This document shows, in pieces, positions 5,869 through 23,041 of a stretch of 64,000 bases of DNA. Source of the DNA: Tunturiibacter empetritectus (GTDB lineage Bacteria > Acidobacteriota > Terriglobia > Terriglobales > Acidobacteriaceae); contig NZ_JACCCU010000002.1 of NCBI RefSeq assembly GCF_013410875.1, positions 1,116,001 through 1,180,000 of the forward strand, in the 5' to 3' direction. The notes beneath the pieces are model-generated. The model had not been told where the DNA came from. It worked only from the letters and a program-made list of their open reading frames with translations, and searched no databases. Numbering within the stretch: the first letter of the stretch is position 1; each line of letters opens with the position of its first letter. A program made the position numbers and the translations under genes.

Positions 5869-6771
5869 ATGAGCTTCGAAGTTATTATTCCGTTTCTCAA
5901 GCCCATCGAACATCTTCTGTCCAACAAAGCAGTTTCCGAGATCATGGTGAATCCCGATGGTTCTGTGTGGATGGAGGAGAAGGGCAACATCGAACTGTTG
6001 TCAGAGATCAGATTTGATGAGGGAGCGTTGTTGACGAGCCTCGAAGTGATCGCCAACCGCTTCGGCAAAAAGCTCGACGCAGACAGCCCAATTCTCAACC
6101 TGCGCCTGCCCGATGGCAGCCGTATGGCGGCGCTCATCCCGCCTGTGGTCAATCCGCTGCCCATGATGACCATTCGCAAGTTTACCTCGCGCGACTTCAC
6201 GGTAGAAGATTTGATTGAGCGCAGAATGCTCAATGTCGAGCAGGCGCAACAGCTCACGGATGCGATTCGCCGTGGAGACAATCTCCTGATCTCTGGTGGA
6301 ACCGGCGCGGGAAAAACGACTTTGATAAACGTCATAGCCGGCTTTATCCCCGATAGCGACCGAATCTTCATCATTGAAGACGTTGCCGAACTCTACATAC
6401 GGAAGCGGCATGTCATATCCGCTGAGGCCCAACTCGATACTCACAAGAGCCAGATCGGATTCAGCGATTTGCTAAAAGCGGCACTCCGCCACAGACCGGA
6501 CAGAATTATAGTAGGGGAGATTCGTGGACCGGAGGCGCGTGTCTTTCTGGACGCCCTCAACACCGGCCATCGCGGATCGCTCTCGACGATCCACGCCAAC
6601 AACGCCGGAGACGCTCTGCGGCGTCTCGCACAGCTTGCCATGCGTGGCTCGAACGGCGTTCCTTTGCATGAAGTCGCCGAGGAGTGCAGGCGATCCATCA
6701 ACCTGGTCGCGCATGTGGCGAATGATGGCGGCTGGCGGCACGTTACAGAGATTCGCACATCGAGGGAATGA
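5869..6771 (+). CDS. VirB11/TrbB-like secretion ATPase
   Basis: 300 residues. This family forms cytoplasmic hexameric ATPases that power type IV (and related type II) secretion and conjugation. It has a short N-terminal domain, then Walker A GGTGAGKT (residues 143-150), an Asp-box region (FIIEDVAEL), Walker B-like RHRPDRIIVGEIRGPEA, and the His-box segment GSLSTIHANN. A good ribosome site (AGAGG) precedes ATG 5869. It follows the coupling protein after 157 bases. It is slightly shorter than typical TrbB proteins, which suggests a compact N-terminal domain. CpaF-like tad ATPase is the alternative, but the TraG neighbour favours conjugation. Confidence 0.85.
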   Translation: MSFEVIIPFLKPIEHLLSNKAVSEIMVNPDGSVWMEEKGNIELLSEIRFDEGALLTSLEVIANRFGKKLDADSPILNLRLPDGSRMAALIPPVVNPLPMMTIRKFTSRDFTVEDLIERRMLNVEQAQQLTDAIRRGDNLLISGGTGAGKTTLINVIAGFIPDSDRIFIIEDVAELYIRKRHVISAEAQLDTHKSQIGFSDLLKAALRHRPDRIIVGEIRGPEARVFLDALNTGHRGSLSTIHANNAGDALRRLAQLAMRGSNGVPLHEVAEECRRSINLVAHVANDGGWRHVTEIRTSRE

Positions 6772-6855
6772 TCCAAGTGGATGTATGCATAAACCCTCAG
6801 AAGTCAGGTGGTCGGGAGCGATCCATACTTCGACCGCAGGATACCTATCTGACCC

Positions 6856-7782
6856 TCAATTGATTTCAATCCTGAGAGCCAAGAGTTGAGAGAGAAATCC
6901 ATCTGCGATCTCTTTGAGTTTGCCGTACCGTTGATCGCGCCTCATGAAGAGCGCGATCTCAATTCCGAGATAGCGATCAGCAAGCGGCTTGAAAACAATT
7001 CCGGAATAGGAGATATGGGCCACAGAAGAACGGGGCAGCAAGGCGATACCAAAGCCATGAACAGTGAACTCAAGAGCGTGCGTCGTACTTTTGACCTCTT
7101 TGAATACCGGTCGTACAGACAGGCTGGCCATATATCTCATTACCCGTCCATAGAACCGTGGCTGCAACGATCGTGGCATCCAGAAGATCATTTCGCGGTC
7201 CAGGTCATGTGCGGTCACCGCTACCTTCTGAGCCAACCGGTGGTTCCTTGGCAGGCAGACCGAGAATCCCTCCTGTCCGACGCGCTGTACCCACAGATCG
7301 CGGTCAACGATGGGGCCAACTCCCAAGGCGACGTGTAGACGGCCCTGAAGAACTCGCTCCACCAACTCTAGAGTATTCGCTGTCTCAAGGACGATTCCGG
7401 AAGGTTCATCGCCGGGAGGATGAGACGCCGGGCTCAGCCTGTTCAAAAGCGGTAGGAACGCATTGTGAGTGTAGGGAGAATACCCGATGCGATAGGGGCC
7501 GGTCTCAATCTGAGCCTGAAATCGGGCGAGATCCCAAGCACGTTCCGCATGGCTGATCGAGAGAGATGCCTCCTGAACGAAGAGCCTTCCTGCAGCGGTA
7601 AGATCCACCTTGCGCGTCGATCTGTCGAACAGCTTGACGCCGATGCTTTGCTCCAGCAACGTGACTCTTCTGGTGAGTGATGGCGGAGTAATTCCCAGCT
7701 TCTTCGAGGCCCGGACGAAATTGCCCTCCTGAGCGATGACGACAATCATGATGGTGACTTCCAATGGATTCTTGCTCTGCAT
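6856..7782 (-). CDS. LysR-family transcriptional regulator
   Basis: 308 residues. The N-terminal winged helix-turn-helix reads FVRASKKLGITPPSLTRRVTLLEQSIG (shown here as a 27-residue span at about 21-47; key pattern A-S-K-L-G-I-T-P-S-L-T-R), followed by the linker helix and LFDRSTRKVDLTAAG. The rest fits the periplasmic-binding-like effector domain (YRIGYSPYTHNAFLPLLN onward). Full length for the family. It points away from the ATPase gene and has no divergent partner: 1.1 kb of gene-poor DNA follows its start, so its target is unknown. Confidence 0.88.
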   Translation of the reverse strand: MQSKNPLEVTIMIVVIAQEGNFVRASKKLGITPPSLTRRVTLLEQSIGVKLFDRSTRKVDLTAAGRLFVQEASLSISHAERAWDLARFQAQIETGPYRIGYSPYTHNAFLPLLNRLSPASHPPGDEPSGIVLETANTLELVERVLQGRLHVALGVGPIVDRDLWVQRVGQEGFSVCLPRNHRLAQKVAVTAHDLDREMIFWMPRSLQPRFYGRVMRYMASLSVRPVFKEVKSTTHALEFTVHGFGIALLPRSSVAHISYSGIVFKPLADRYLGIEIALFMRRDQRYGKLKEIADGFLSQLLALRIEIN

Positions 7783-8894
7783 GGAGACCTGCCTTCAAAG
7801 TAGAGGTTATGATGCGTGGGAAATGCCTTTCTGCGTCAGCGATTCTGGAATAAAACGAAATGGAGGGGCTAGATATTGCGCAGCTCTGTTCCTACACTTG
7901 CGCCGATTAGACCTTCTTCCGTGGGATGGCACAGTAATCCCCATCGTTGGAGAAAACTACACAAATTGGAGTCATTTTTGTGCAGAGCTCGGAACCTGCG
8001 AAACAGGCTCATATCCGCCTAGCAGGACACACCCAAATGCGACCGGGCAAGGGTAGTCAACGCAATCCTGGTTTCGGCAGGTCGGATACGACTCTTCTTC
8101 ATTTTGTGGACGAGTCGGACTAAAACGCACCACTGCAGCCACCGCACATGGAGGATCAACTTCGACCGTGAGGTTTGCGGTTCCTCTGCAGCGACTCCGA
8201 ACCCCTGTTTCTTCAGGATCGTAGGCAAATAATTGAAATGGCACAACTCGGCCCAATCGTACATAGCTCCCTACTCAGCGAAAGAAAGAGCAATCAGTGT
8301 GACATTGGAGCCGGACTGGCTCCGTGCCGCAAGCTTGGCAGTGAGATGGTGGACATGCAACAGAAATTATGCGATTGGCCAAATTTACTCTCTCAATGAA
8401 ACTGGAGAGCCCGACTTGAAATGTGTCGGAGGCTGAGAGAGTAATGCTAGACGAGCAGAGCTACGGCGGATCAAAGTGACAGTCACGAACGGCTGGATGA
8501 TTGTCCAGGCGTCGAAGGGGAGTGCGGTAAGGTCTGTAGACGGACTGGCCAAGCGCGCGAAGGAAATGCCCCTAAGAGCTGACTCGCGGAGGCTTTGAAG
8601 GTCCTCATCCTAACCAAAATATGCTAAGAACTGAAGCTCACTGCGAAACATCTCTAAAACCGCTAATCGGACGGATTCTCGCGTTTGGCGACGAAGCCGA
8701 ATATTTCCTGTTGCGTTACCTTATGTCGAGGCACAAAATTGCTCATATCGTCGGCTCGCGCCATATAGGCAATAGGCAAACTTTGAAGTAAATATTCTTT
8801 ACATGGATTCTGTACGATCCTGCTGCTAAGGGCTCTCCTGTTCATTTCGTCATTCCGACTCCCGTGCTGAGCTTCTTTGAGGAGGCTGCTCATT
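7783..8894. other. Gene-poor stretch
   Basis: Only short, overlapping, biased frames are present, none with a convincing ribosome site or recognisable motif. The stretch probably holds the LysR promoter at its left end and, at its right end, the GAGGAGG ribosome site (8879-8885) of the next gene. The sequence may be decayed coding DNA, but I could not identify a parent gene. Confidence 0.5.
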
Positions 8895-10454
8895 GTGTAT
8901 AGTTTTGTCCCACGCGAGCAAATCGCCGACACACTCATCCATCTCCGCGGGCTGTTTCGTAACGTTCCACCCGTCGACGAAAAGGAATATCGGGCGCAAG
9001 AGAGAAGAGAGCTTTTGACAAAGAACCTGCTTTCGAATCTCCGCCGCACCAAGGATCATCCCACTCTTCACGCCGTTCTTGAGGTTGCGAATGCCTTCTC
9101 GCTGACTCTTGATGGTGCGCACCGACTCTTCGGATACGAGTTGGAGAGAATCAGAGAGTATGACCTCAGATTAAACGCCGGACGCACTCACATCATTGAA
9201 ACTTACCCATTCGAGCGCGATCTTCCGGTTGACCTGCCCTCACAGTTGGGCGTTGATGAGATCTTTACCAGGAATGCCACCCTACATGAACTTGTCCCGG
9301 AGTGGCAAGGCAACGTTCCTATCCATGCCTTGGAGAATGCCGATTGGCGTCAGCCACGCGCATTCTATGTGCACGTCGGAACAGAAGACAGCCTGGGCTC
9401 CAGCCTGCCGCCCGGTGCAATTGCTCTTGTAGTGCCGATAGACGAAGCAGAACAATCGCGTCCAAACCCAAGAGCAATCTATCTGCTTCAGTTCGGTAAC
9501 GGATACCGTTGCAGTCGCTGTGTCGTCAGCCGAGGAAAGCTCATATTGCTAGTCTCCGGTCGAAGACATAACGGCCCTCATGAGTTCGCTTTTCCGAAAG
9601 ACGTGAGGATTGCAGGAAGAATACGCATGTTCGCGTTGAGCCTTCCGCTGCCCGACTATTCGTTACTCCACTCTCTTCCAATGTCTGAGCACAACGCTCC
9701 GCTGGTCCTTCCCTGGGAGCATTCCTCAATGGATCGGCTGTTCGGGACGAAACATCGCCGGTTTCGGAGATCGCGTCAGGATCTTCCGCGCATTCAAGAG
9801 ACGATGGAGTCAATCTTCCATACGAAACTCAGCGGCAGGACGGAACGGCGCTATCGGCGCCATACGTCATCTATGCCCCATGTCGATGCACTGATCCGAC
9901 TCTCCGTGATGCATCTGACGCGTTACACCGATGCCCTCAGGGTGCAGCAGCCTATGCCCTCTGATCTAGGGAGGTATTCTCTCGATACTCTTCTCAATAC
10001 AAGACACTTTGCGGATCTATCGGGAAAGTTTCGCCGACCTCATATGCCCGTTCCGAGGGATCGGTGGATGGAACTCCGCAAGAAATTTGCTGAATGGCCC
10101 ATGCTGCTGTCGCTACGATTTCCGCAACTTCGCGCTTTGGACGATCGAGTGGTTCTACTTCCGCAGGGCAGCGCACTTCAGGGTGTCGATCCACCCATCT
10201 CTCCAGGCTCTCTCATTCTTTTGGAAGAAATACCCGGTATCTCTGAGATTCAGAGCGACACAACAAAGGCCGGCTGGGGCCGCCGGCTCTATGCGTTTCG
10301 TAGAGGCGCGGATCTACGATGCGGCTACTTGGATAGAAATGAGGATCGTTACACTCTTCTTGTCGGCTCTGACGGTGCCGGCGAAGCGATTTCGATTCGT
10401 CAAGACGAAATTCACCAGCTTAAGCGCATCTCCGGCGTTGCTGTGCCGCTATAA
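8895..10454 (+). CDS. Large regulator-like protein with N-terminal helical DNA-binding-type region
   Basis: 519 residues from GTG 8895. GAGGAGG lies 9 bases upstream, and an upstream TTG at 8877 overlaps that ribosome site, so the GTG is preferred. The N-terminus is helical with a possible helix-turn-helix (HAVLEVANAFSLTLDGAHRL). Residues about 130-180 resemble an S24/LexA-like beta domain (HVGTEDSLGSSLPPGAIAL), and another GSLILLEEIPG block of the same type lies near the C-terminus. The middle is very basic (RRFRRSRQDL). I read it as a DNA-binding regulator of XRE/S24 type, but that is inference. It is the nearest upstream gene to the lasso operon (868 bases away) and on the same strand, so it is a candidate regulator. 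Confidence 0.5.
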   Translation: MYSFVPREQIADTLIHLRGLFRNVPPVDEKEYRAQERRELLTKNLLSNLRRTKDHPTLHAVLEVANAFSLTLDGAHRLFGYELERIREYDLRLNAGRTHIIETYPFERDLPVDLPSQLGVDEIFTRNATLHELVPEWQGNVPIHALENADWRQPRAFYVHVGTEDSLGSSLPPGAIALVVPIDEAEQSRPNPRAIYLLQFGNGYRCSRCVVSRGKLILLVSGRRHNGPHEFAFPKDVRIAGRIRMFALSLPLPDYSLLHSLPMSEHNAPLVLPWEHSSMDRLFGTKHRRFRRSRQDLPRIQETMESIFHTKLSGRTERRYRRHTSSMPHVDALIRLSVMHLTRYTDALRVQQPMPSDLGRYSLDTLLNTRHFADLSGKFRRPHMPVPRDRWMELRKKFAEWPMLLSLRFPQLRALDDRVVLLPQGSALQGVDPPISPGSLILLEEIPGISEIQSDTTKAGWGRRLYAFRRGADLRCGYLDRNEDRYTLLVGSDGAGEAISIRQDEIHQLKRISGVAVPL

Positions 10455-11322: not shown

Positions 11323-11592
11323 ATGAGCATCGGCAGCAATCATATTCATACGGTCACCGATCAGGATGGCGCCGCCATCCTCGATATCGAACACGGCACG
11401 GTCACTACGCTCAATTCCACTGGGGCCTTTGTTTGGCAACGACTTGAGCGAGGCGAAGGTCTGCAGATCATTGCCGCGAGTCTTTCGCGTGATACCGGCG
11501 AAGATGTTTTAACCGTCGAGCGTGACGTGCGCGAGTTTGTCGAATCACTCAAGCAAAACAACCTCTTGTCTCGGCCTATGCGGAGGGCCTAA
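11323..11592 (+). CDS. Lasso peptide B1 protein (PqqD-family leader-binding RRE)
   Basis: 89 residues. GGAGGAGCC precedes ATG 11323, so this start is preferred over an upstream in-frame ATG at 11260. PqqD-type proteins are stand-alone RiPP recognition elements that bind the precursor leader and present it to the peptidase and cyclase. The sequence follows the family pattern: DQDGAAILDIEHGTVTTLN, then TGAFVWQRLERGE and a C-terminal helical half ending in LKQNNLLSRP. It is the first gene of a compact operon with kinase, oligopeptidase, B2, C and precursor. The next gene begins on the base after its stop codon. Confidence 0.88.
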   Translation: MSIGSNHIHTVTDQDGAAILDIEHGTVTTLNSTGAFVWQRLERGEGLQIIAASLSRDTGEDVLTVERDVREFVESLKQNNLLSRPMRRA

Positions 11593-12963
11593 ATGTCAAT
11601 CGCCGAAGCTACTATCGAGATGATCGAGTATCGGGTCATCCTTGTGCGTTCTGACTCCCGCCAGCTGCTGGCGTTCGATGCAGTTGGAGGCTACTGTCTG
11701 CCGCGTGTTCGGATTCCGCTGTTTACCCGTCCAGCGGAGCAATTGCAGAAGGCTATCAAAGCCATAGTGGGACTGCCCGTTATCATTCTCGAGTTTCTCG
11801 CCGTGGAGAACGGTTGCTGCCGCTGCGCGGTTGCTGAGGTCCTTGCTCCCGATGCAAGCTCCGAACTCAGGCCGGTGACGCTCGAGAAGATTGCGGGTGC
11901 CGAGTTATCCGAACAGGAGCGTGCCCAACTTGATTCCCTGCTTTCCGGCACCAGCCATTCCGCAGTATCCCAGATCGGCTGGATCGATCAGGCGATTGGA
12001 TGGCTTGAGTGGGAAACTGCGGCGAAGCTCTCGTCCAAGAGCCAAATCGAACAGTACAACGCGGGTGGGGCTTTCTCCCTTATCCGTTTTCCTATGGACG
12101 ATGCAACGAATTATTGGCTGAAGGCGACGGGCGAGCCAAACATACACGAACTCCCGATTACGAAGCATTTGTCCGAGCTGAGCGGTGATTGTCTCCCACA
12201 CTTCGTCTCAGTACGGCCAGAATGGAACGCCTGGTTGATGTCAGGTGGGCCCCAGGTCGAGGAGGTGACCACCGAGCCTTACAAGCTCTTCTGCTTTTTG
12301 GAAGGCGCTGCTGGATCCATAGCTGAACTTCAAATGAGAACTCAAGGACACAGCCAGACTCTGATGGACTCCGGCGTCTTCGATCAAGGCTTCGATGTCT
12401 TTCAAATGCATTCCGAAGCATTATTCGACTCTCTTGAAGAGGCCATGAGCCTGCAAACCTCATCCAGGGTTCCTCGTCTTGAACGATCACGTCTGCAGGA
12501 GATTCGCAAAATATTCGACGATGTATGCAGTCGCATGGAGCGTCTCGATCTACCCAAGACGATCGTGCATGGAGACATCAATTACGGCAATATCTTGTTC
12601 CGTTGCGGACGTTGTCAGTTCATTGACTGGTGCGAGGCATATATCGCTAATCCACTCATTTCCCTACAGCACCTGTTGCTTCTCAACAAGACGAAGGATC
12701 CGGAGCTGAGGGGCTTCATGAGCCGGGGGATCACGGACAGGTATCGAACGATCTGGTTGCGATCCTGCAATGCCGGCTCATTCGATAAGGGATTGATTTA
12801 TATGCCGCTCCTTGCGGTTGCCTCGACCTTGTATGGAAGAGGCGATTGGCTGACTTCGCCCCAACGAATTGATCCCCGACGGCAGTCGTATGCACGTAGT
12901 CTTGCGCGGCACATGGACAACGCAGCGCGCGAGCCGAAGCTGCTGGAGGCGCTATGCCACTAA
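11593..12963 (+). CDS. Nudix-like/aminoglycoside-phosphotransferase-type kinase in the lasso operon
   Basis: 456 residues. The C-terminal part carries the APH/choline-kinase catalytic loop HGDINYGN (H326, D328, N333) and the metal-binding FIDW (D345), so an active small-molecule or peptide kinase is likely. The N-terminal 120 residues (IEYRVILVRSDSRQLLAFDA, then YCLPRVRIPLFTRPAEQL) resemble a Nudix-like fold without a clear Nudix box. ATG 11593 directly follows the B1 stop, with GGAGGG inside the B1 end. It overlaps the next gene by 10 bases. Kinases that phosphorylate lasso peptides are known (the paeninodin HPr-kinase type), but this one belongs to a different superfamily. A tailoring or self-protection role is inferred. 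Confidence 0.75.
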   Translation: MSIAEATIEMIEYRVILVRSDSRQLLAFDAVGGYCLPRVRIPLFTRPAEQLQKAIKAIVGLPVIILEFLAVENGCCRCAVAEVLAPDASSELRPVTLEKIAGAELSEQERAQLDSLLSGTSHSAVSQIGWIDQAIGWLEWETAAKLSSKSQIEQYNAGGAFSLIRFPMDDATNYWLKATGEPNIHELPITKHLSELSGDCLPHFVSVRPEWNAWLMSGGPQVEEVTTEPYKLFCFLEGAAGSIAELQMRTQGHSQTLMDSGVFDQGFDVFQMHSEALFDSLEEAMSLQTSSRVPRLERSRLQEIRKIFDDVCSRMERLDLPKTIVHGDINYGNILFRCGRCQFIDWCEAYIANPLISLQHLLLLNKTKDPELRGFMSRGITDRYRTIWLRSCNAGSFDKGLIYMPLLAVASTLYGRGDWLTSPQRIDPRRQSYARSLARHMDNAAREPKLLEALCH

Positions 12964-14984
12964 CCAACTCAATTCATACTCCGGTCGAAGAACTCATCCA
13001 CGGCGTTGTGGTACGTGACCCTTATCGCTGGCTTGAAGATCGGAATCTTCCCGAAACGGAAGAATGGCTCCGCGATCAGCACTTGAGGTGCGAAGAATAT
13101 TTCGCAGACTGCATCGATCTCGACGGGCTTCGAAAGCGTGCACGTGAGTATCTGGATATCGAAGTCGTCGATCAGCCCGCAAGAGTGGCAGGCCGATACT
13201 TTTACCGTCGGCGCGATAGAGGGCAGGAACAGGCAAGCATCTACATTCGAGACATGACATCGGGACTCGAGCGGCTACTCGTCGACCCTGCGGCGGTGGG
13301 ACCCTTCACAAGCGTCGGCATCCATCACGTCTCCGACGACGGATCGATGCTCGCTTATGAGCTCAAACGGGATGGCGGAGATCGGAAAGCCATCTACATT
13401 GTAGATGTTGTGAGTGGTTACATCTTGCCTGACAGCATCGAGACCGGCTATGCGAGAGGCTTCTGCTTCACTTCGGATCTTCGAGGGTTTTATTATTGCC
13501 ACGAAGTGCTGGAATCACCGGAAGAGCATTTGATCTGCGTCCACCTGTTTGGAGAGCCGGCCGAGGATCAGGTATGTTTTCGCGCTCCACGCACGCGTGG
13601 AAGCCGCTTGCTCCTAAGAGCCGATGGGATCCATTTGGGTGCGTTGTACGTACACGAGCTCGATGGGGAGTTCGTTGTCGATTTCTGGGTCGCCCGGCGC
13701 GATGAGACGAAGATCTGGAATTGTGTGCTCGCAAATCGCACGCTCCCATTTGGCCCCATTTTGAAACAAGGTCGTCTCTTCGCTCTCAGCTACGAACATG
13801 CCTCCCGGGGGAAGCTCGTGGAGCTCGATCTCGCGGGAACTGAGATCCGGACGGTCATTGCGGAGCAGGCAGGCACAGTCCGTGAGCTCATCATGCTCGG
13901 CGACAGAATCTTTATCAACTATCTGGATCAACTGGAACATTCGGTGCGTTGCTGGAATCTCGCTGGGGAAGATATGGGCCGTATACCCATTCCCCTGAAT
14001 GGAACAGTTCAACTGCTGGCTCACCATGGCGACCATGGAAATAGTGTCTTCTACACATTCGAATCGTTCACGCAGCCGCTTGTCTTGTTTGAGTACGAGA
14101 TTGACGCCGACGAGCCACACCTCTGGCACCGGAGATGCACACCAATAGCGCCTTTGTGCACTATTCGTGAGGCCAATTACCCCTCCGGAGACGAAAAGAG
14201 CATTCCGATAACGCTCGTGACTCCCAAAGGAGTTGGTTTGAGCGGTGGATTGCCAGTGTTGATGACAAGCTATGGAGGCTTCGGTGTGTCGATGACGCCA
14301 CAGTTCTCCGTTCTCGTGTCCATCATGATGGAGCTGGGCTGTACCTTCGTGCTGCCCCACATCCGCGGCGGCGGGGAGTTCGGAAAGGATTGGCACGAAG
14401 CTGGCCGAGGAAGAAATCGCCAGGTAGCTTTCAGCGATTTCATAGCCGCCGCGGAGTGGCTGAACAGGGAAAGTTTGACTTCGCCTCGGCTTGCCATCTT
14501 TGGCGGATCGAACTCGGGGCTATTGGTCTGCGCAGCGATGACGCAGCGGCCAGATCTGTTCACCGCTGTACTCTGCATCGCTCCGCTTCTGGACATGGTG
14601 CGTTACGAATTTTTCAACCAAGCCGCGAAGTGGCGGAAGGAGTATGGGACTGTCAACGATCCGCAGGACTTCTCCGCTCTGTACGCATCTTCTCCGTACC
14701 ACCATATTGGGGACCATATCGACTATCCGTCCTTATTGTTTGTAGCCGGAGACAGCGATGATCGCTGTAATCCCGCTCATGTCAGGAAGATGGCGGCTCG
14801 TCTGCAGAACCGCGCGGCCCAACGTTCTCCCATCATCGTGGACTACTGCGGAGAACGAGGACATTCCCCGGTTCTGCCTTTATCTGTTCGCATCGAGGCC
14901 TTAGCAAGGAGAATCGCTTTTCTGTGCAAGGAGCTCAACCTGCCTGTCGTCTTCGGAGACCGTCATGAAACGGCTTGTGCTTGA
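12954..14984 (+). CDS. Cytosolic prolyl oligopeptidase (S9A) in the lasso operon
   Basis: 676 residues, the usual length for prolyl oligopeptidase, with no signal peptide. The start DPYRWLEDRNLPETEEWL is the family hallmark. Beta-propeller sequence is followed by an alpha/beta-hydrolase domain with Ser519 in GGSNSGLL, Asp602 in GDSDDRCNP and His637 in ERGHSP, so the triad is complete. In most family members the serine motif is GGSNGG; here one Gly is Ser. It overlaps the kinase gene by 10 bases and the B2 gene by 20. A role in precursor or leader turnover, or in degrading wrongly retained product, is inference. It is distinct from the exported isopeptidase-like enzyme at 17521-19827. Confidence 0.88.
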   Translation: MPLTNSIHTPVEELIHGVVVRDPYRWLEDRNLPETEEWLRDQHLRCEEYFADCIDLDGLRKRAREYLDIEVVDQPARVAGRYFYRRRDRGQEQASIYIRDMTSGLERLLVDPAAVGPFTSVGIHHVSDDGSMLAYELKRDGGDRKAIYIVDVVSGYILPDSIETGYARGFCFTSDLRGFYYCHEVLESPEEHLICVHLFGEPAEDQVCFRAPRTRGSRLLLRADGIHLGALYVHELDGEFVVDFWVARRDETKIWNCVLANRTLPFGPILKQGRLFALSYEHASRGKLVELDLAGTEIRTVIAEQAGTVRELIMLGDRIFINYLDQLEHSVRCWNLAGEDMGRIPIPLNGTVQLLAHHGDHGNSVFYTFESFTQPLVLFEYEIDADEPHLWHRRCTPIAPLCTIREANYPSGDEKSIPITLVTPKGVGLSGGLPVLMTSYGGFGVSMTPQFSVLVSIMMELGCTFVLPHIRGGGEFGKDWHEAGRGRNRQVAFSDFIAAAEWLNRESLTSPRLAIFGGSNSGLLVCAAMTQRPDLFTAVLCIAPLLDMVRYEFFNQAAKWRKEYGTVNDPQDFSALYASSPYHHIGDHIDYPSLLFVAGDSDDRCNPAHVRKMAARLQNRAAQRSPIIVDYCGERGHSPVLPLSVRIEALARRIAFLCKELNLPVVFGDRHETACA

Positions 14985-15342
14985 AAGCTGGTTATTGTTG
15001 CTCTATTTCGAATTCATCTTACGCGTCTGCGGCTTCAAACACCTTCATCGCACTGTCCGAGAGATGAAGGTACGACCCGTTGGCGAGCAGGATTGCCTGA
15101 CAAGCACCGGCCTGTGTCATGCCGTCGATCTGGCCTGCGTCTTTTATTTCAAGCGAGTGATGTGCTTGCAACGTTCAGCCGCAACGACGCTTCTGTTGCG
15201 TCGTCATGGGTGGGCAGCAGAGATGGTCATCGGAGCCCAGATAATGCCGTTCCGCTCGCACGCTTGGGTGGAGATCAAGGGTGTTGTCGTGAATGACAAA
15301 CCGTACATGCTGGATAAGTACCGGGTACTGGAGCGCTGCTGA
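14965..15342 (+). CDS. Lasso peptide B2 protein (transglutaminase-like leader peptidase)
   Basis: 125 residues. B2 cysteine proteases cut the leader from the lasso precursor using B1 to bind it. The catalytic triad is visible: Cys67 in MCLQRSAA, His99 in FRSHAWVE and Asp111 in VVNDKP. The family end VLERC is present. The N-terminal 25 residues are hydrophobic (LESWLLLLYFEFILRV), as often seen in stand-alone B2 proteins. ATG 14965 lies inside the end of the oligopeptidase gene (20-base overlap), pointing to translational coupling. C starts 13 bases after the stop. Confidence 0.93.
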   Translation: MKRLVLESWLLLLYFEFILRVCGFKHLHRTVREMKVRPVGEQDCLTSTGLCHAVDLACVFYFKRVMCLQRSAATTLLLRRHGWAAEMVIGAQIMPFRSHAWVEIKGVVVNDKPYMLDKYRVLERC

Positions 15343-15355
15343 TCTGAGGTGGGTC

Positions 15356-17200
15356 ATGAGTGTTATTTTCGGAATCAGAAAGACCGAAGGAGCGTTGGTC
15401 GAGGGGCGGCAACTACTCGACCTAGCTCACGCGACTAATCGCTATGCGCTGGATGGGACCTTTGTACGAGCCAAGGGAAGCGTCGGGATGGGCTTTCAGT
15501 CATACCGTACTCATCAGCGTGCTGATCTGGAATCCCAGCCATTCCTCGATGACTTCGGCAATATGGTCTCGTTGGATGGCCGCCTCGATAATCACAAAGA
15601 ACTTCGTGAATTGCTGGACATTCCTGGGACGGATACGGCGGATTCGCTGATCATTCTAAGGGCTTTCCGTTGCTGGGGGGAGGAGTGCTTTGCCAGATTT
15701 GTGGGAGACTGGGCGCTCGCTCTTTGGATACAAGAGAACAGCTCGCTTTACCTCGCTAGAGATCATGCCGGTACGCGGACGCTATATTTTGAAGAAACAA
15801 ACGGCCATCTTGTATGGTCGACCTTCTTGGAGACGTTCTTTGCCGATAGAAGGTCGAGGCCTCTGGATGAAGCTTATGCGGCACGCTACCTGTCGTGCCA
15901 CCCAATCGGCGACCTGACACCCTTCGCCAATATTGCTGCGGTGACCCCCGCGCACTATTTCATCTTCTCTAAGGGAACCATTGTTCGCAGACCGCACTGG
16001 CAATGGATGGTCAAAGACCGGATCACCTACAACCAGGACAGTGAGTATGAGGAACATTTCCTGAAGCTCTTTGCACAGGCTGTCGATCGTCGCACCGGTC
16101 CCGGGGCCCCGATTCTCGCGCACCTCAGCGGTGGGATGGACTCCAGCGCAATTGTTTGCATGTCCGACACCCTCAGGCTGCATCAGGGGCGACAAATAGA
16201 GCAACTGCTCGATACGGTTTCGTTTTACGACGACTCCGAGCCAGCCTGGGATGAAAAACCTTATTTTACGGCTGTGGAGTCCCAGCGAGGCAAAGTGGGT
16301 TTACATGTCGACGTATCTTCAACACGCCCAACATTCACTCCGCTGTCTTGTCCTCCAGGGGGATATCCCCTACTGCCGGGGAACGATGGGGGCTCCTACG
16401 AACAAAGGGAGCACTTTGAAGAAATCTTGGCATCGCGGGGATATCGAGTCCTCTTGTCCGGAGTCGGAGGAGATGAGCTCTTGGGGGGCGTGCCGACGCC
16501 TCTGCCCGAGCTGTCCGATTATCTCTTGACCTGCAATTTCGCTGCTTTGTTTCAGAAGACGCTTCCTTGGTGCCTGAGTTTGCGCACCTCGCTCCTACAT
16601 CTGCTTTGGGATACTGTTACGTTTTCACAGCGCGCCTATTGGAGCGGTTCATCCGGCAAGATACACCTGCCGCCATGGGCCCCCCACCGCTTGGAACCGA
16701 ACGAGGCTGATGCCAAACAAGAAGGAGGTTTGCTCCTGCCAAGTAGGGTCATGAACGGAAGAACGTGGTGGTCGATACTGGAGACCCTTCCCAGCCCCCA
16801 CCTTGCATCTTCGAGAAGAGAATACCGTTTTCCTTACCTTGACCGAGATCTGGTGGATTTCCTCCTTCGCATCCCCAATGATCAGCTCGTTCGCCCAGGC
16901 CGAAGACGCGCTCTCATGCGTAGAGCGCTCTCGGGCATTCTTCCCTCCGTTGTATTGGAGCGGCGCAGGAAGGCCTATATCGATCGAGGACCAGCTGTCA
17001 CGCTTGCCCTCTCTATAGACACAATTCTGGACTCCGTGGCGAACTCACTCCTGGCCAGGCATCGATATATCGACATTCCTAAATTCGAAAGCTTCCTTCG
17101 TCAAGTGGGATCCCAAGATCAGAGCAGGTGGGGATTGTCTCTCATGAGGACATCCCTCTTTGAAATCTGGTTGAAGTCAGGATGGGCCACCATTCCTTAA
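15356..17200 (+). CDS. Lasso peptide cyclase C (asparagine synthase-like)
   Basis: 614 residues from ATG 15356. GAGGTGG precedes it and the protein begins MSVIFGIRKTEG, the typical start of this family; an in-frame ATG at 15293 lies inside B2 and is rejected. The enzyme activates an Asp or Glu side chain by adenylation and closes the macrolactam with the core N-terminus. The N-terminal Ntn-type domain lacks the catalytic Cys2, normal for lasso cyclases. The PP-loop LSGGMDSS is at about 257-264, with further synthetase-domain sequence (LLSGVGGDELLGG; YRFPYLDRDLVDFLL). The precursor gene follows after 92 bases. Confidence 0.93.
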   Translation: MSVIFGIRKTEGALVEGRQLLDLAHATNRYALDGTFVRAKGSVGMGFQSYRTHQRADLESQPFLDDFGNMVSLDGRLDNHKELRELLDIPGTDTADSLIILRAFRCWGEECFARFVGDWALALWIQENSSLYLARDHAGTRTLYFEETNGHLVWSTFLETFFADRRSRPLDEAYAARYLSCHPIGDLTPFANIAAVTPAHYFIFSKGTIVRRPHWQWMVKDRITYNQDSEYEEHFLKLFAQAVDRRTGPGAPILAHLSGGMDSSAIVCMSDTLRLHQGRQIEQLLDTVSFYDDSEPAWDEKPYFTAVESQRGKVGLHVDVSSTRPTFTPLSCPPGGYPLLPGNDGGSYEQREHFEEILASRGYRVLLSGVGGDELLGGVPTPLPELSDYLLTCNFAALFQKTLPWCLSLRTSLLHLLWDTVTFSQRAYWSGSSGKIHLPPWAPHRLEPNEADAKQEGGLLLPSRVMNGRTWWSILETLPSPHLASSRREYRFPYLDRDLVDFLLRIPNDQLVRPGRRRALMRRALSGILPSVVLERRRKAYIDRGPAVTLALSIDTILDSVANSLLARHRYIDIPKFESFLRQVGSQDQSRWGLSLMRTSLFEIWLKSGWATIP

Positions 17201-17292
17201 ACCTGAGAAAGACGCTAGACAGTTTGCCTTCTCTGGAAGGCTACAAGTTCCGGATGGATCACCCATACGGAAGTAACAAAAGGAGTAATTCT

Positions 17293-17442
17293 ATGCGCTA
17301 TACGAAACCAGTTGTTTTGTCCTACTCCATGGCTAGTTCTTCCGTCATGGGCTCTCCGAAGGCAACCAGAAACCCTGACAACATTGAAGGTGGCATGCCT
17401 GCTTTCCTCAGCTCCGTCGGAGCATATGAGGCGGACGAGTAA
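17293..17442 (+). CDS. Candidate lasso peptide precursor
   Basis: 49 residues. ATG 17293 has an AAAGGAG site 8 bases upstream; an in-frame ATG at 17182 inside the C gene is unlikely. The leader carries YTKPVVL at residues 3-9, matching the Y-x-x-P motif read by B1 proteins, followed by a Ser-rich stretch ending in VMG (18-20). Later residues give acceptors Asp29 and Glu32. A core starting at Ser21 would place Asp29 at ring position 9; cores starting at Ala24 or Thr25 would put Glu32 at position 9 or 8. The usual Thr at the penultimate leader position is not obvious. The gene is last in the operon, while most lasso precursors come first. Precursor role: strong from position; core boundary: uncertain. 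Confidence 0.75.
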   Translation: MRYTKPVVLSYSMASSSVMGSPKATRNPDNIEGGMPAFLSSVGAYEADE

Positions 17443-17458
17443 CCTTCATGCTTTCCAT

Positions 17459-17499
17459 ACAGGAGTTGATTGCCGGAAATCTGGACACTCAACTCCTGT
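17459..17499. terminator. Stem-loop between the convergent lasso operons
   Basis: ACAGGAGTTGA (17459-17469) pairs exactly with TCAACTCCTGT (17489-17499) around a 19-base loop. It sits between the precursor stop (17442) and the isopeptidase stop (17521). No strong U-tract follows on either strand, so it may be a weak bidirectional terminator or a 3' stabiliser of the precursor mRNA. Confidence 0.6.
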
Positions 17500-17520
17500 G
17501 TGATATGAAAATCGTTCACA

Positions 17521-19827
17521 CTAGTGTGGCGAATCCAGCCGGCGTTCTGCATTTACTGCGCTCCGCAATTCACGCCATCGCTGGTATTGCTGAGGGTCCA
17601 TCGCTGTAGGTCGCTCTTGGTCTCTTAGCCAGAACAGATACCAATCCAGATTGCGTTCTAGCGATGCCAGGCGGGCCAAGGGATGACCGGGCTGGTGCGA
17701 CTCCAGAGGATAGTAATACATCTCGACAGGTTTTCCAAGGCGACTGAGTCCGACAAAGACCTCCCACTTCAGAGCGAGATTGCTTGGAGGTGCCCCATCG
17801 TTGTCATACGCCACGCCGTTACCCATTACCTCCATCAACAATGGAGTCTGAACCCTTGGAAGGTTGAACGAGATGGAATAGTCCAGCCACGACTTCAATG
17901 TCGCGCCATAGGGCGGGCCTCCGTACATCGCATCCCAAGCGCGCAGAACCCCATCCGTGTGGATCATCCAATACTCGCCCAAGCTGTATTGTGTATTATC
18001 TGCGACGGTCGCTGCAGCATAGTTTGTTTTGCCGTGTGTAAGCGCAAATTCGGTATACCAGCCGGAACGGCTGAAGCCTATGATTCCGACTCTGTTCCGG
18101 TCAATGAGGCCGTCCTTCGCAAGATGCTCGATGGCGCTATCCCAGACATCCGCCTGAAATGCTACTTGTCCCAAAAGTCCAGGGAGGCCTTTGGGATAGT
18201 GGGTTTGTTCCTCCGCTGTCTGCGGTCCTTCGGGCAAAAAACGAATCAAATACATGATTCCGGCATTTGCAATCGGCTGGGGAGCAAATGAAGGCTCGTG
18301 ATTCAAGCCACTATCGCAAAAGAAATTACCCGCTGCTGGATATGAGTGGATCACCAAGGGATAGCGTGTGCCTGGCTTGTAGTCCGGAGGTAGAAGGAGA
18401 ATGCCGGAGGCACGATAGCCGGTCGAAGTCTCCCACTGCACTTCTTTGATTGGTGCCAGAGTCAGTTCGTCGAACTGCGGATTGAGCTTGGCCAGGATCT
18501 GCACCTGTTCTTCGTCCTCTTTGTAAGAAAACAGCTCCGGCGGAGTTGCCGGTGATTCATAGTCTCCTACGACAGATCTTCCATCGCTCGCAAGCCCTGC
18601 ATTCCTGAAGAGCCCCTGAAGGGGAAGATGGATCTGCGACGACTCCTCCCACTTCTGATGCTTATACTGAAACCGCGAAACGATGTTGTCTCCTGTACGA
18701 AGGACAAGATCGTCATCGGATCTCCACGACAAGGGACGATCGTAGATTCCATTAAGTTCAGAACGAACCTGTATGACCGAGCCGGACGCAACGTTGACTT
18801 CGAATAAGTGAACTGCCTCGCTGGCTCCTCGATGCTCTCGCAGGTCTTGCTGCTCCCACACGCTATTGACTGGAGAGACAGAGGCGATCATGAACGACTT
18901 GCTGTCGCGCGACCAGAAGGGAATGCTCCATGCCCATGGGCCCTCAAATGGAAGATGTGTTTCGCCGTCCGATAAATCGACCACTACAGTAACCTGCGCT
19001 ACTCCAATGCTGGAAAGGATGTCCCGAACTACCGGGCTTTTCTTCCAGGCGTTTGAAATCCGGCTGGAATTTTCAAGATATGTTAACGCCAGCGACTCTC
19101 CATTTGGAGAGAGGCTTAGCCGCAGATTGAGGGCGTAGGAAAGAGACGTGAGAGTTCCCTTGGTAAATGGCGACTGCACGCTCAAGGCCTGTGGTGCGGT
19201 CCACCCTCCCGTACCGCCTCTCCGGGTAACGAAGATCTTTCGCCGAAAGAAGAGCGCTACCTGCTCTCTCTGAAAGGGGATTCTATAGCCTTGCGCGAGG
19301 TCGCTGGCACTTTTTAGCTTGTTCCGGGTTTGGTCCGGCTCTTCCATCGCAAAGACAATGGTTTTACCATCTTCGGCGACGCTGTATTCGGAGATATCCT
19401 GAGACGCTCGCGCTAAGACCTGGACGCGTCCTGAAGGGATCTCAACCTGTTTAACAACGGTGTGGCCGTCATCCTTCGCCAAGACTATGACGGCCGTGCC
19501 ATCGTTCAGCCACTGCAAGCCGGAGATATCCGCACCGGCGAGTAAGTGTTGCACTTGCCCCTGCGGCGCACCAAGCTGTTTCAGCTCGAGGAGAATATCG
19601 TTCTGATTTGATTGAAGATTAGGGGCCTGAACCAGGTACGCAACAGCAGTCCCTTGGGAATTGGTCTGAATGGAAGAACGAAAATCGTCTTCGAGAAAGT
19701 GCCGGACAGTAACGCAGTCTGCCGGAACGATTGCCCTCCGCAACTCAGCCTGAAGGCTTCCCGCGAAGACGCATAGGGTGAATATCAAGAACTTGTTGTG
19801 ACGCTTCCACATCTTCTGTTGGGTCAT
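17521..19827 (-). CDS. Exported S9 peptidase, Atxe2-type lasso peptide isopeptidase candidate
   Basis: 768 residues. A signal peptide (basic start, then FLIFTLCVFAGSLQA) precedes a mature start with DCVTVRHFLEDDF, which resembles the Atxe2 lasso isopeptidase group. These enzymes are S9 beta-propeller/hydrolase proteins that open the macrolactam bond of lasso peptides. The nucleophile is Ser586 in GFSRSGWYTEF; a His candidate lies in ESHQPGHP near the C-terminus; the acid residue is probably in the GVAYDNDGAP loop. It starts 15 bases after the receptor gene and is last in the sigma/anti-sigma/receptor operon, converging on the precursor. An ordinary dipeptidyl-peptidase-like S9 enzyme is the alternative. 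Confidence 0.8.
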   Translation of the reverse strand: MTQQKMWKRHNKFLIFTLCVFAGSLQAELRRAIVPADCVTVRHFLEDDFRSSIQTNSQGTAVAYLVQAPNLQSNQNDILLELKQLGAPQGQVQHLLAGADISGLQWLNDGTAVIVLAKDDGHTVVKQVEIPSGRVQVLARASQDISEYSVAEDGKTIVFAMEEPDQTRNKLKSASDLAQGYRIPFQREQVALFFRRKIFVTRRGGTGGWTAPQALSVQSPFTKGTLTSLSYALNLRLSLSPNGESLALTYLENSSRISNAWKKSPVVRDILSSIGVAQVTVVVDLSDGETHLPFEGPWAWSIPFWSRDSKSFMIASVSPVNSVWEQQDLREHRGASEAVHLFEVNVASGSVIQVRSELNGIYDRPLSWRSDDDLVLRTGDNIVSRFQYKHQKWEESSQIHLPLQGLFRNAGLASDGRSVVGDYESPATPPELFSYKEDEEQVQILAKLNPQFDELTLAPIKEVQWETSTGYRASGILLLPPDYKPGTRYPLVIHSYPAAGNFFCDSGLNHEPSFAPQPIANAGIMYLIRFLPEGPQTAEEQTHYPKGLPGLLGQVAFQADVWDSAIEHLAKDGLIDRNRVGIIGFSRSGWYTEFALTHGKTNYAAATVADNTQYSLGEYWMIHTDGVLRAWDAMYGGPPYGATLKSWLDYSISFNLPRVQTPLLMEVMGNGVAYDNDGAPPSNLALKWEVFVGLSRLGKPVEMYYYPLESHQPGHPLARLASLERNLDWYLFWLRDQERPTAMDPQQYQRWRELRSAVNAERRLDSPH

Positions 19828-19842: not shown

Positions 19843-22800
19843 CTAAAATTGAATCTTCAATGCAAATTGAAGAGAGCGAGGACCGCCCTGTTGGTATTGC
19901 GAACCTAAGGTAGCGAGACTTTGATTCAGCGTCTGAGTAGCCTGTCCAAACGTAGCATCGGACAGCGTCGAATCGATCAGACCGAACATCGGATGGTTGA
20001 GGAGATTGAACGCTTCCGCTCTGAACTGCACTGTTGCGCTACCCGCCAGAGGGAAGGTGCGGCGTGCGGCGAGGTTGATCTGCGAAGCATCGAATCCTCT
20101 TACGAAGTTGCGCGGGGCATTCCCTGTCTTCTCCGCTGCCGGAAGCTGGAAAGCAGCCTGATTGATCGAACGTCCACCTGGATATTGGGAACCATAGAGA
20201 TAGACAGGTTGAGTTGCGATCAGGTCGACATTGCTATAGTAACGGCTACCTGTTGCCGAATCGGTAAGCAGGTCGCCTCCCAAAGTGACGGGGAAAGCAG
20301 TCCGTGCTATGAGGCGGCCATCGAGCGCCCACCCTCCAAGGATCGCTTCCGCACTCTTCCTCTGGTACTCGCCTGGCAGCTCCCAACTCACCCCTCCCTG
20401 AAGATTATCTCTGACGTCAAAGTCGGAGTTCCCTCGAGTGAGTGGCAGAGAAGCGTTGTTTGAACCGAAGTCTAACGAGTGAGACCAGGTGTAGGAGGCA
20501 AGCGCCTGAATGCCGTGGGTCACTGTGCGCTGGAACTGTATCTGCAAGGCCTGGTAGTTCGATGTGGTTCCCGTTTGGACGACATCCACGGTGCTGAAGT
20601 TCGGATTCAACGCTGTCAGAGAGAGCTGCTGCATCTGCAATAGCCGCCGGCCGTTCGATCCGACATAGGAGACTGTCAGAGCCTGAGGCCGCCCCAATGC
20701 CTGTTGCAGGCTCACATTCCATTGCAGCGTATATGGCAGTTGCAGATGCGGGGGAAAAGCAACTACTGCGGTGCTGGTATACGGAGCGGTGGTGGAAGGC
20801 GAAAAAGCCAACTGTGCTGGAGTTACCGGGAATGCCTGGCCCGTTCCGATTTGAATTGCGGAGAAACCGAGATACTGATAGCCCGTTGTGGCGATTTGGT
20901 TTCCGCTGTCGAAGAACACGCCAGCCCCTGTCCTCAAAATCGTCTCCCAATCCGGCTGATCCCGAGCCGTCCATGCAGCTCCAAGTCTCGGAGCGAAGTT
21001 GTACCAACTTGTCTTCCACAATGGTGTCCCTCGTGGTGCGACTGTAAGCGAACTAGGGTCGGCCAGATCGCCGAGAAGGGTGAAGGCGTCGTTCCCGTGC
21101 TCTTCGGTTGGCGGGGGATCGATCTCCCACCGAATCCCACCGGAGATGGTCAGCCTTGGAAGCGAATGCCATTCGTCCTGCAAGAACACCGCGGTTTCGT
21201 TAAATATTGGCGTGGCTGGCAGAACCTTCGAGAGAATACCGATATCCGCGCTGTTATTGAGAACCGAGGATTGATCGAGATAGATGCCCGAGACATAGGG
21301 AGATGACGGATACAGTGGAGATTTGATCCTGCGGTAGTCGATGCCGAGCTTGAGCTGGTGCTTCCCGAGGCTCAGACCGGCTGTATCGACGATATTCCAT
21401 TGTCGGCTCTGATTCACACTGCCGATTGCCTGCAAGATCGATGTTCCCGTACCGAAAAAGCTCAGTTGAAAAGCGCTGCCGGCAGTTTCAGACGCTTCAT
21501 TCCCAAGCGCGCTTCCGAGGTCAACGGACGTAGCTCCTCCAAAGGAATCCAACGCCGTTTGCGTTCTTGAGTCGCTACAGGAGTAGCCAAGTCGAAACTC
21601 ATTTGTGAACCGATTTGATAATCGGCTGGTTGCGCCAACAGTGTAGGTCTGTGTGTCAAATGAAGTCTGCGTTAGAGCAGAGAGCACGCGGGTGCTGGTG
21701 GAGCTGGGTGTATCGCTAAAGCGAAAGAAGACGCTCGACTTGGGTGAGACGACGTGATCGATCCGGCCGCTGATGGAGTCGATCTTGCTCGGGAGAGAGA
21801 AAGGCTCGATGAACTGCGCAAGACCGCTAGCGTAGTCGATGCCGCCGATGCTTGGAAGAGGAAAGGCGTTAAGTATGGACTTCATGGCAGGAGGAGCATT
21901 CTGCCTCATGGCAGCGTCAGGAACATACTGAATTGAAGAAGCTTGAGGTTGGGTAAGCCGAAGCCCCTCGTAGGAAGCAAAGAAGTAGCTTGGGTGCGAA
22001 GGCGGACCAAGATACGGAAGGTGGATTGGGCCTCCGAGTGTTCCCCCAAAGTCGTTCTGGCGTAAAGGGGTGATCGCTCTTCCGTAATGGTCGTTAAACC
22101 AGTTGTTCGCGTCGAAGTAATTGTTGCGAAGATAGTCGAATGCGCTCCCATGAAATTTCTTTGTGCCCGACCGGGTAAGCAGTGAGAATTGTGCTCCAGG
22201 GGAGCGCCCGTACTCCGCAGAATAGGTTGATCCGGATACACGGAACTCTTGCAGCGCATCGACCGAAACCAGGCTTTGCGTCGTGCCAAGGGCGGTTGTA
22301 GCTCCGATCCCTCCGCTGGTCGCCGCTTGAGGACCTCCCGTTGCTGCTCCGGCGCCGACGTTCGCGCTCACACCGTCGACCGTGTAGTAATTGCTCTCGG
22401 TTCGCTGGCCATTCACACTGAAATCACCGCTCGCGCCCACAGCTTGAGACGACTGCGGGCTCTGAGTCACGATGCCTGGCGTCATTGAGATGAGATCCTG
22501 AAAACTGCGGCCGTTGAGGGGGATATTCGCAACAAATTTGCGGTCAATCACCGTACTGACCGAAGCGTCCGCTGTATTGAGCAAGGACGACCCAGCTTCC
22601 ACCGTGATGCTCTGCGACGTCGCCCCCACGGGCAGAACAAAGTTCAGCGCGATAGCCCCTTGCACATTCAGAACCACGTCAGGCTTGATGATGGTCTTGA
22701 AGCCCTGCTTCGAGACCTGCACATGGTAGTGTCCCGGAGGCAGGATGGGAACGAAGTACATTCCTGAGGTGTTCGTCTGGTCGGAATACCGCACGCCGGT

Positions 22801-22953
22801 CTCATCATTGGCAATCTCCACCGCGGCGCCCGTGATAAAACGGCCTGTGGGATCGGTGACTCCTCCGCTGATCGTGGCACTCGTCGACTGGGAAAACACC
22901 GCCGTGGGGACGAACCAGAGGGCGGACAGGAGAAGGCAAGCAAGTAGCTTCAT
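19843..22953 (-). CDS. Oar-like TonB-dependent receptor with carboxypeptidase-regulatory domain
   Basis: 1036 residues from ATG 22953, behind a GGAG site; an in-frame ATG at 22992 is less likely because the signal peptide MKLLACLLLSALWFVPTAVFS starts at the second one. The order is signal peptide, CarboxypepD_reg-like Ig fold (about 22-105: GGVTDPTGRFITGAAVEIAN), plug (PLNGRSFQDLISMTPGI), then a large beta-barrel ending in an aromatic-type FALKIQF. This is the large outer-membrane receptor type expanded in Acidobacteria. In proteobacterial astexin loci a TonB receptor is thought to import the lasso peptide before isopeptidase cleavage; the same job is inferred here from the operon. Confidence 0.88.
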   Translation of the reverse strand: MKLLACLLLSALWFVPTAVFSQSTSATISGGVTDPTGRFITGAAVEIANDETGVRYSDQTNTSGMYFVPILPPGHYHVQVSKQGFKTIIKPDVVLNVQGAIALNFVLPVGATSQSITVEAGSSLLNTADASVSTVIDRKFVANIPLNGRSFQDLISMTPGIVTQSPQSSQAVGASGDFSVNGQRTESNYYTVDGVSANVGAGAATGGPQAATSGGIGATTALGTTQSLVSVDALQEFRVSGSTYSAEYGRSPGAQFSLLTRSGTKKFHGSAFDYLRNNYFDANNWFNDHYGRAITPLRQNDFGGTLGGPIHLPYLGPPSHPSYFFASYEGLRLTQPQASSIQYVPDAAMRQNAPPAMKSILNAFPLPSIGGIDYASGLAQFIEPFSLPSKIDSISGRIDHVVSPKSSVFFRFSDTPSSTSTRVLSALTQTSFDTQTYTVGATSRLSNRFTNEFRLGYSCSDSRTQTALDSFGGATSVDLGSALGNEASETAGSAFQLSFFGTGTSILQAIGSVNQSRQWNIVDTAGLSLGKHQLKLGIDYRRIKSPLYPSSPYVSGIYLDQSSVLNNSADIGILSKVLPATPIFNETAVFLQDEWHSLPRLTISGGIRWEIDPPPTEEHGNDAFTLLGDLADPSSLTVAPRGTPLWKTSWYNFAPRLGAAWTARDQPDWETILRTGAGVFFDSGNQIATTGYQYLGFSAIQIGTGQAFPVTPAQLAFSPSTTAPYTSTAVVAFPPHLQLPYTLQWNVSLQQALGRPQALTVSYVGSNGRRLLQMQQLSLTALNPNFSTVDVVQTGTTSNYQALQIQFQRTVTHGIQALASYTWSHSLDFGSNNASLPLTRGNSDFDVRDNLQGGVSWELPGEYQRKSAEAILGGWALDGRLIARTAFPVTLGGDLLTDSATGSRYYSNVDLIATQPVYLYGSQYPGGRSINQAAFQLPAAEKTGNAPRNFVRGFDASQINLAARRTFPLAGSATVQFRAEAFNLLNHPMFGLIDSTLSDATFGQATQTLNQSLATLGSQYQQGGPRSLQFALKIQF

Positions 22954-23041
22954 ACGACGATGCTCCGGAAATCTAGGATGAAAGATGTTCATCCTGTCTA
23001 CGGTTGGAGGTCGAGGTTATGTATCAGCTGCTGGTGCTATT

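Follow-up and report, generated by a model that had tools for sequence, protein, structure and literature searches.

The soil acidobacterium Tunturiibacter empetritectus carries, in the stretch of 64,000 nucleotides that we analysed (contig NZ_JACCCU010000002.1; the window), a small gene at the end of a lasso-like operon, and the question raised by this locus is where in the encoded peptide a ring would be closed and by which amine. Lasso rings follow a rule of 7-9 residues (PMC10368454), and genome mining for lasso peptides seeks an acidic residue 7-9 positions past the leader. This search fits about one third of the cores in the acidobacterial family to which the gene belongs, and published expression of such clusters has given no product able to fix the ring position. 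The original prediction for this gene had proposed a lasso-type precursor with three possible registers, Ser21-Asp29 (nine residues), Ala24-Glu32 (nine) and Thr25-Glu32 (eight), ring sizes that agree with our count, and had considered the first of them, if right, a Ser1 lasso peptide.

Precursor gene A encodes 49 amino acids, MRYTKPVVLSYSMASSSVMGSPKATRNPDNIEGGMPAFLSSVGAYEADE, at 17293-17442 on the forward strand, starts 92 bases past the stop codon of C and closes the operon as its final gene, just as had been predicted. An AAGGAG ribosome site precedes it at 17280-17285, and a terminator-like hairpin follows at 17456-17505, which probably acts as a two-way terminator. The second genome of the same species contains a copy that is 98% identical with one substitution, and in the majority of some 60 loci syntenic homologues are located 3' of C; judged by these copies, gene A is a real gene and no chance open reading frame.

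Features of the precursor and its operon (positions in the window).
Feature	Coordinates	Strand	Basis
B1, PqqD-like RRE	11323..11592	+	PF05402 1.7e-14, NF033530 9e-12; best solved relative TbiB1
APH/choline-kinase-fold kinase with N-terminal extension	11593..12963	+	PF01636; AlphaFold model resembles macrolide/aminoglycoside phosphotransferases, best E 1e-8
Prolyl oligopeptidase (S9A)	12954..14984	+	PF02897, PF00326; best solved relative prolyl endopeptidase 2bkl, 362 bits
B2 leader peptidase	14965..15342	+	NF033537 80.6 bits, cut-off 33
C, asparagine-synthetase-like macrolactam cyclase	15356..17200	+	NF033535 6.8e-72, 243 bits (below the exception-level cut-off of 525); PF00733
Precursor gene A, 49 aa	17293..17442	+	Conserved small gene 3' of C, ribosome site 17280-17285
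Leader, residues 1-19: Y3(-17), P6(-14), A14(-6), V18(-2), M19(-1)	17293..17349	+	Leader alignment; BsfA spacing rule (PMC10368454)
Predicted core, residues 20-49, GSPKATRNPDNIEGGMPAFLSSVGAYEADE	17350..17439	+	Cut inferred from leader spacing and G/S enrichment at +1
Lys23, conserved anchor and proposed ring nucleophile	17359..17361	+	Lys in 108/110 dereplicated family cores
Asp29 (Lys+6), proposed ring acid	17377..17379	+	D/E at Lys+6/+7 in 94/110 cores vs 19.6 shuffled
Ser41 (Tyr-4), candidate phosphorylation site	17413..17415	+	S/T at Tyr-4 tracks kinase presence
Conserved C-terminal motif AYEADE	17422..17439	+	C-terminal columns: Y -5 in 89/113, E -1 in 96/113
Terminator-like hairpin between the convergent A and isopeptidase genes	17456..17505	.	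MFE -31.7 kcal/mol, z -6.2
Lasso isopeptidase, AtxE2-like, signal-peptide-like N-terminus	17521..19827	-	NF033523 195.6 bits (cut-off 400); best solved relative AtxE2 5txc/5txe
TonB-type outer-membrane receptor, plug and beta-barrel	19843..22992	-	PF25183 7.8e-143, PF07715

The operon contains the set of enzymes that defines lasso clusters, i.e. a B1 RRE, a transglutaminase-like B2 and an asparagine-synthetase-like C, the last scoring below the NF033535 cut-off. Modelled with AlphaFold (mean pLDDT 85.5), C matches AsnB-fold asparagine synthetase, beta-lactam synthetase and TsnB9. A search of solved structures with B2 gave no match, and no ATP-grasp ligase of the kind that a graspetide cluster would have was detected among the operon's proteins. 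Together with the leader spacing described below, B1, B2 and C support the predicted assignment of the gene A product as a lasso-type precursor. The isopeptidase and receptor genes lie beside the operon, as in isopeptidase/TonB import systems. In the kinase the phosphotransferase fold is preceded by an additional conserved N-terminal segment of some 100-150 residues, and the prolyl oligopeptidase has no obvious signal peptide. An open reading frame of 525 amino acids at 8877-10454 of the window, which matches no Pfam or NCBIfam model, recurs 5' of B1 in many related loci (35-55% identity) and may be part of the system.

Searching genome contigs with the single sequence of C found nothing; an alignment search gave matches. 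Relatives of C are present in 59 of the 398 sampled genomes of the host's taxonomic family, with more in its class. In most of the 60 loci B1, kinase, (prolyl oligopeptidase), B2 and C follow one another in this order, the isopeptidase and receptor genes come next but are encoded on the opposite strand, and the space separating C from the isopeptidase gene contains a small YxxP gene. The atypical leader end and the last position in the operon, to which the original prediction had drawn attention, are thus both present but normal for the acidobacterial family and not peculiar to gene A. After dereplication the set of homologous precursors comprised 110 cores.

The leader contains Y3-x-x-P6 and has no Thr near its end, as predicted, the usual -2 place (Tyr+15) being held by Val18. 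In BsfA, where the cut was demonstrated by in vitro cleavage, Tyr is located at -17, Pro at -14 and Ile at the penultimate position (Duan et al. 2023, PMC10368454), and Ile/Val(-2) has already been noted for Acidobacteriaceae precursors (PMC10368454). Placing Y3 at -17 and P6 at -14 puts V18 at -2, M19 at -1 and G20 at +1, from which we infer that the leader ends with Val18-Met19 and that Gly20 is core residue 1; gene A thus shares YxxP at -17/-14 and the conserved -2 residue with its family. In the alignment of 17-residue leaders Y and P are found in 107/107 sequences, A(-6) in 100/107 and I/V(-2) in 107/107, in a set for which I/V at Tyr+15 (or +14/+16) was an entry requirement. Eleven of 143 candidate frames had no I/V there: four T(-2) controls, four spurious frames, two from a degenerate cluster and one genuine paralogue, whose leader is shorter by one residue. 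The +1 residue is G or S in 76/113 family cores.

Counted from Gly20, the first acidic residue, Asp29, is residue 10 and would come to lie at 7-9 only with a shifted cut. Across the family the paired acid occupies positions 8-17 from the leader end with no fixed distance. An acid at 8 or 9 occurs in just 35/110 family cores as compared to 19/19 control lasso precursors from other Acidobacteriota classes (Fisher p 7e-9), the controls having been gathered by the same kind of scan, from which 5/24 candidates, one of them carrying T at -2, were removed on visual inspection because their frames belong to unrelated sequence. A fixed distance appears when the acid is counted from a Lys: D/E is found 6 or 7 residues past a Lys in 94/110 dereplicated cores, the mean of 2000 shuffles being 19.6 and their maximum 33, although the shuffles ignore relatedness of the cores, the effect of which is only reduced by dereplication at 65% core similarity. 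Lys stands out as anchor residue (z 20.3), Gly being next (3.3) and all others at most 3.3. The spacing test was defined with the initial 58 cores, where 52/58 fitted when counted from the first Lys and 13.8 were expected, and was replicated on 52 cores fetched later (40/52, 9.2 expected; 47/52 including +8). Every one of the 73 cores in which positions 7-9 hold no acid shows a Lys-acid pair with an offset of +6 to +8; among the controls the pair is found in 3/19.

Three precursors missed by the YxxP scan (L133, L253 and L115, without Tyr or Pro) fit the Lys-acid pattern by inspection. Mapping of the characters on the cyclase tree gave 26 changes for the offset (34.5 shuffled), 41 for the Lys position (54.0) and 51 for the acid position (58.7); the characters differ in their number of states, so that these counts back the offset as supporting evidence only. 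Paralogues within operons were rejected as proof of the Lys anchor because, among ten informative pairs differing in Lys position, four keep the Lys-acid offset and two the acid position, which is too weak. Taken across the aligned cores, the counts show that an almost invariant Lys, and not the front end of the peptide, sets the spacing of the putative ring; the pair in gene A is Lys23-Asp29. Ile/Val(-2) by itself is no marker of the Lys type, since V(-2) is combined with the ordinary lasso geometry, G1 to D8/D9, in two precursors of other Acidobacteriota (L332 and L333).

The original prediction had overlooked both Lys23 and the conserved C-terminal AYEADE motif, but Asp29, one of its candidates, is supported as the conserved ring acid. 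It had named variability at both Asp29 and Glu32 as the outcome that would speak against it; in the relatives the Asp29-equivalent acid is kept at Lys+6/+7. The two registers ending at Glu32 (from Ala24 and Thr25) were rejected, the Glu32 position (Lys+9) being acidic in only 9/57 same-offset relatives. Ser21 was likewise rejected as canonical start, and the Ser1 lasso is not supported, because canonical spacing cuts after Met19 and because the residue after Val/Ile-x is enriched in small residues while that at Lys-2 is not: in cores with Lys at position 5 or beyond, +1 is G/S/A in 37/58 (background 28%), whereas small residues at Lys-2 are at background level (17/58). The residues at Lys-2 and Lys-1 are variable, with Pro, Gln, Asp and Phe among them.

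These data suggest a route in which B1 would grip the leader via Y3xxP6 and B2 would cleave past Val18-Met19, leaving Gly20 as N-terminus. C would then adenylate the side chain of Asp29, and the attacking amine would most likely be that of the Lys23 side chain, not the N-terminal one. The product would contain a Lys23-Asp29 ring, a short free N-terminal Gly-Ser-Pro and a 20-residue C-terminal tail that is possibly threaded; it would probably be phosphorylated by the kinase in the tail near Ser41 and, after import, be opened by the periplasmic isopeptidase. As the canonical cut is conserved however distant the Lys is, a canonical cut combined with a Lys side-chain nucleophile is the simplest reading. 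The Lys23-Asp29 macrolactam would have 26 ring atoms, equal to the 8-residue Glu lasso ring, and in 94/107 cores a ring closed via the Lys side chain would comprise 26-27 or 29-30 atoms; by our own count, Glu lasso rings of 8 and 9 residues contain 26 and 29. The Lys epsilon-amine would, like Gly1, offer an unhindered NH2-CH2, and the adjoining isopeptidase also counts for this ring. Against it stands that no product has been seen from the gene A cluster or any related cluster, and we know of no asparagine-synthetase-type RiPP cyclase that uses a Lys side chain, nor did the papers searched yield one. Ordinary lasso logic also exists near by on the cyclase tree: some sister precursors have G1-D8 geometry with no Lys (L255) or with Arg instead (L250), which means that enzymes using the alpha-amine certainly occur within the enzyme family or among its ancestors. 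We give this structure of the gene A product, with canonical cut, free Gly-Ser-Pro and possibly threaded tail, about an even chance of being right. The general case, an Acidobacteriota RiPP family in which a lasso-type cyclase joins Lys and Asp/Glu side chains 6-8 residues apart behind a free N-terminal extension, is put forward a shade more tentatively.

The main rival is an alpha-amine lasso in which B2, or a second trimming step perhaps carried out by the prolyl oligopeptidase, cuts near the Lys and an ordinary ring is formed between the new N-terminus and Asp29. The cut would expose Lys23 (7-residue ring), Pro22 (8) or Ser21 (9, the register of the Ser1 lasso), and the fixed Lys-acid spacing would follow, since offsets of 6, 7 and 8 correspond to rings of 7, 8 and 9 residues if Lys is residue 1. 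N-terminal residues other than Gly are possible, as metanodin has Asn1 (PMC12670498). However, this requires an unseen protease step, many operons with the same Lys-acid pattern have no prolyl oligopeptidase, and the conserved +1 residue is left unexplained: I/V at Tyr+15 and G/S at Tyr+17 are kept even if the Lys is distant, while Lys-2 and Lys-1 are not conserved. Moreover, the predominant ring, of 7 residues and closed at Asp, would comprise 22 atoms, fewer than in any lasso ring known to us, and we regard a cut near the Lys as rather unlikely. The 35/110 cores that have an acid also at 8/9 would fit closure by the Lys side chain and by the alpha-amine alike.

Closure by the N-terminal amine could also take place after the ordinary cut, giving a 10-residue ring from Gly20 to Asp29 made by a cyclase family tolerant of ring size. 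The canonical cut site, Gly1 and the 35/110 cores just mentioned agree with it. Across the family, though, rings of 8 to about 17 residues would be demanded against the rule of 7-9 (PMC10368454), and the near-invariant Lys and its fixed spacing would go unexplained, which makes such a ring very improbable. Somewhat less improbable, but still doubtful, is that the Lys/acid pair serves as a binding or structural motif, e.g. for cyclase docking, as a salt bridge or as a kinase site, with the ring elsewhere or absent. The evidence for the pair is sequence conservation, which the C-terminal AYEADE shares; on the other hand, the association of the precursor with C and B2 is conserved, the isopeptidase gene adjoins, and the acid is conserved only in the Lys register.

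Within the tail of the peptide with the proposed Lys23-Asp29 ring, Ser41 is our best guess for a phosphosite, since S/T at Tyr-4 is commoner in kinase-bearing operons (62/74 precursors) than in kinase-lacking ones (10/43), a comparison confounded by relatedness. Pro at Tyr-2 was considered as cut site of the prolyl oligopeptidase and rejected: it is commoner in operons with the enzyme (22/62) than in those without it (8/41), and most enzyme-bearing operons lack this Pro. A role of the enzyme as an oligopeptidase-B-like cutter at Lys was also rejected, as it is nearer to prolyl endopeptidases and absent from many operons.

BsfA of Bradymonas and the Ile/Val(-2) lassos of Acidobacteriaceae and Sphingomonadales (PMC10368454) have in common with gene A the YxxP with Tyr -17 and Pro -14, split B1/B2, C and a kinase. 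BsfA differs in its G1-D8 geometry, the lack of a core Lys and an HPr-type kinase acting on Ser3 (PMC10368454), gene A having Asp at core position 10 and an APH-fold kinase. The same order of B1, aminoglycoside-phosphotransferase-like kinase, B2, C and A is found in BGC 482.1 (PMC9064862) and the group II clusters (PMC12670498) from acidobacterial soil metagenome, three of the latter also carrying a prolyl oligopeptidase. No product was obtained from them; the 2025 constructs contained no peptidase genes, and their cores were assigned via Gly/Asp at ring distance with no Lys rule reported (PMC9064862, PMC12670498). Astexin-type clusters likewise have an AtxE2-like isopeptidase, convergent here, and a TonB receptor by the operon. 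Astexins are ordinary alpha-amine lasso peptides, and their clusters have no kinase, prolyl oligopeptidase or split B. Graspetides, side-chain macrolactams made by ATP-grasp enzymes, would share a Lys-to-Asp/Glu side-chain amide, whereas the gene A operon has an asparagine-synthetase-like cyclase with RRE and B2 leader peptidase.

While the cluster build (PMC9064862, PMC12670498) and Ile/Val(-2) (PMC10368454) are already known, the Lys-acid rule appears to be new: neither the rule nor a lasso closed by Lys turned up in the open-licence literature searched, to which a 2026 review on interlocked peptides (PMC13352647) belongs. It places the ring for nearly all family cores and predicts exact masses and mutants, hinting at a ring closure of a kind unreported for lasso peptides. 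If this closure takes place as proposed, lasso-like peptides with a ring away from the N-terminus would exist; with the Lys side chain as nucleophile, the repertoire of lasso cyclases would be wider and an interlocked peptide could have a free N-terminus.

Two further variations were seen among the related loci. One subclade (L238-L244, L146 and L152) has two tandem C genes and precursors that end in DWE, with offsets of mostly +7/+8. Other clusters are apparently decaying: in Granulicella paludicola (L079, about 6055-7386) the kinase gene contains an in-frame stop, and in Acidobacteriaceae ZG23-2 (L087/L140) the cyclase is split by TAG and the precursor is without the family pattern.
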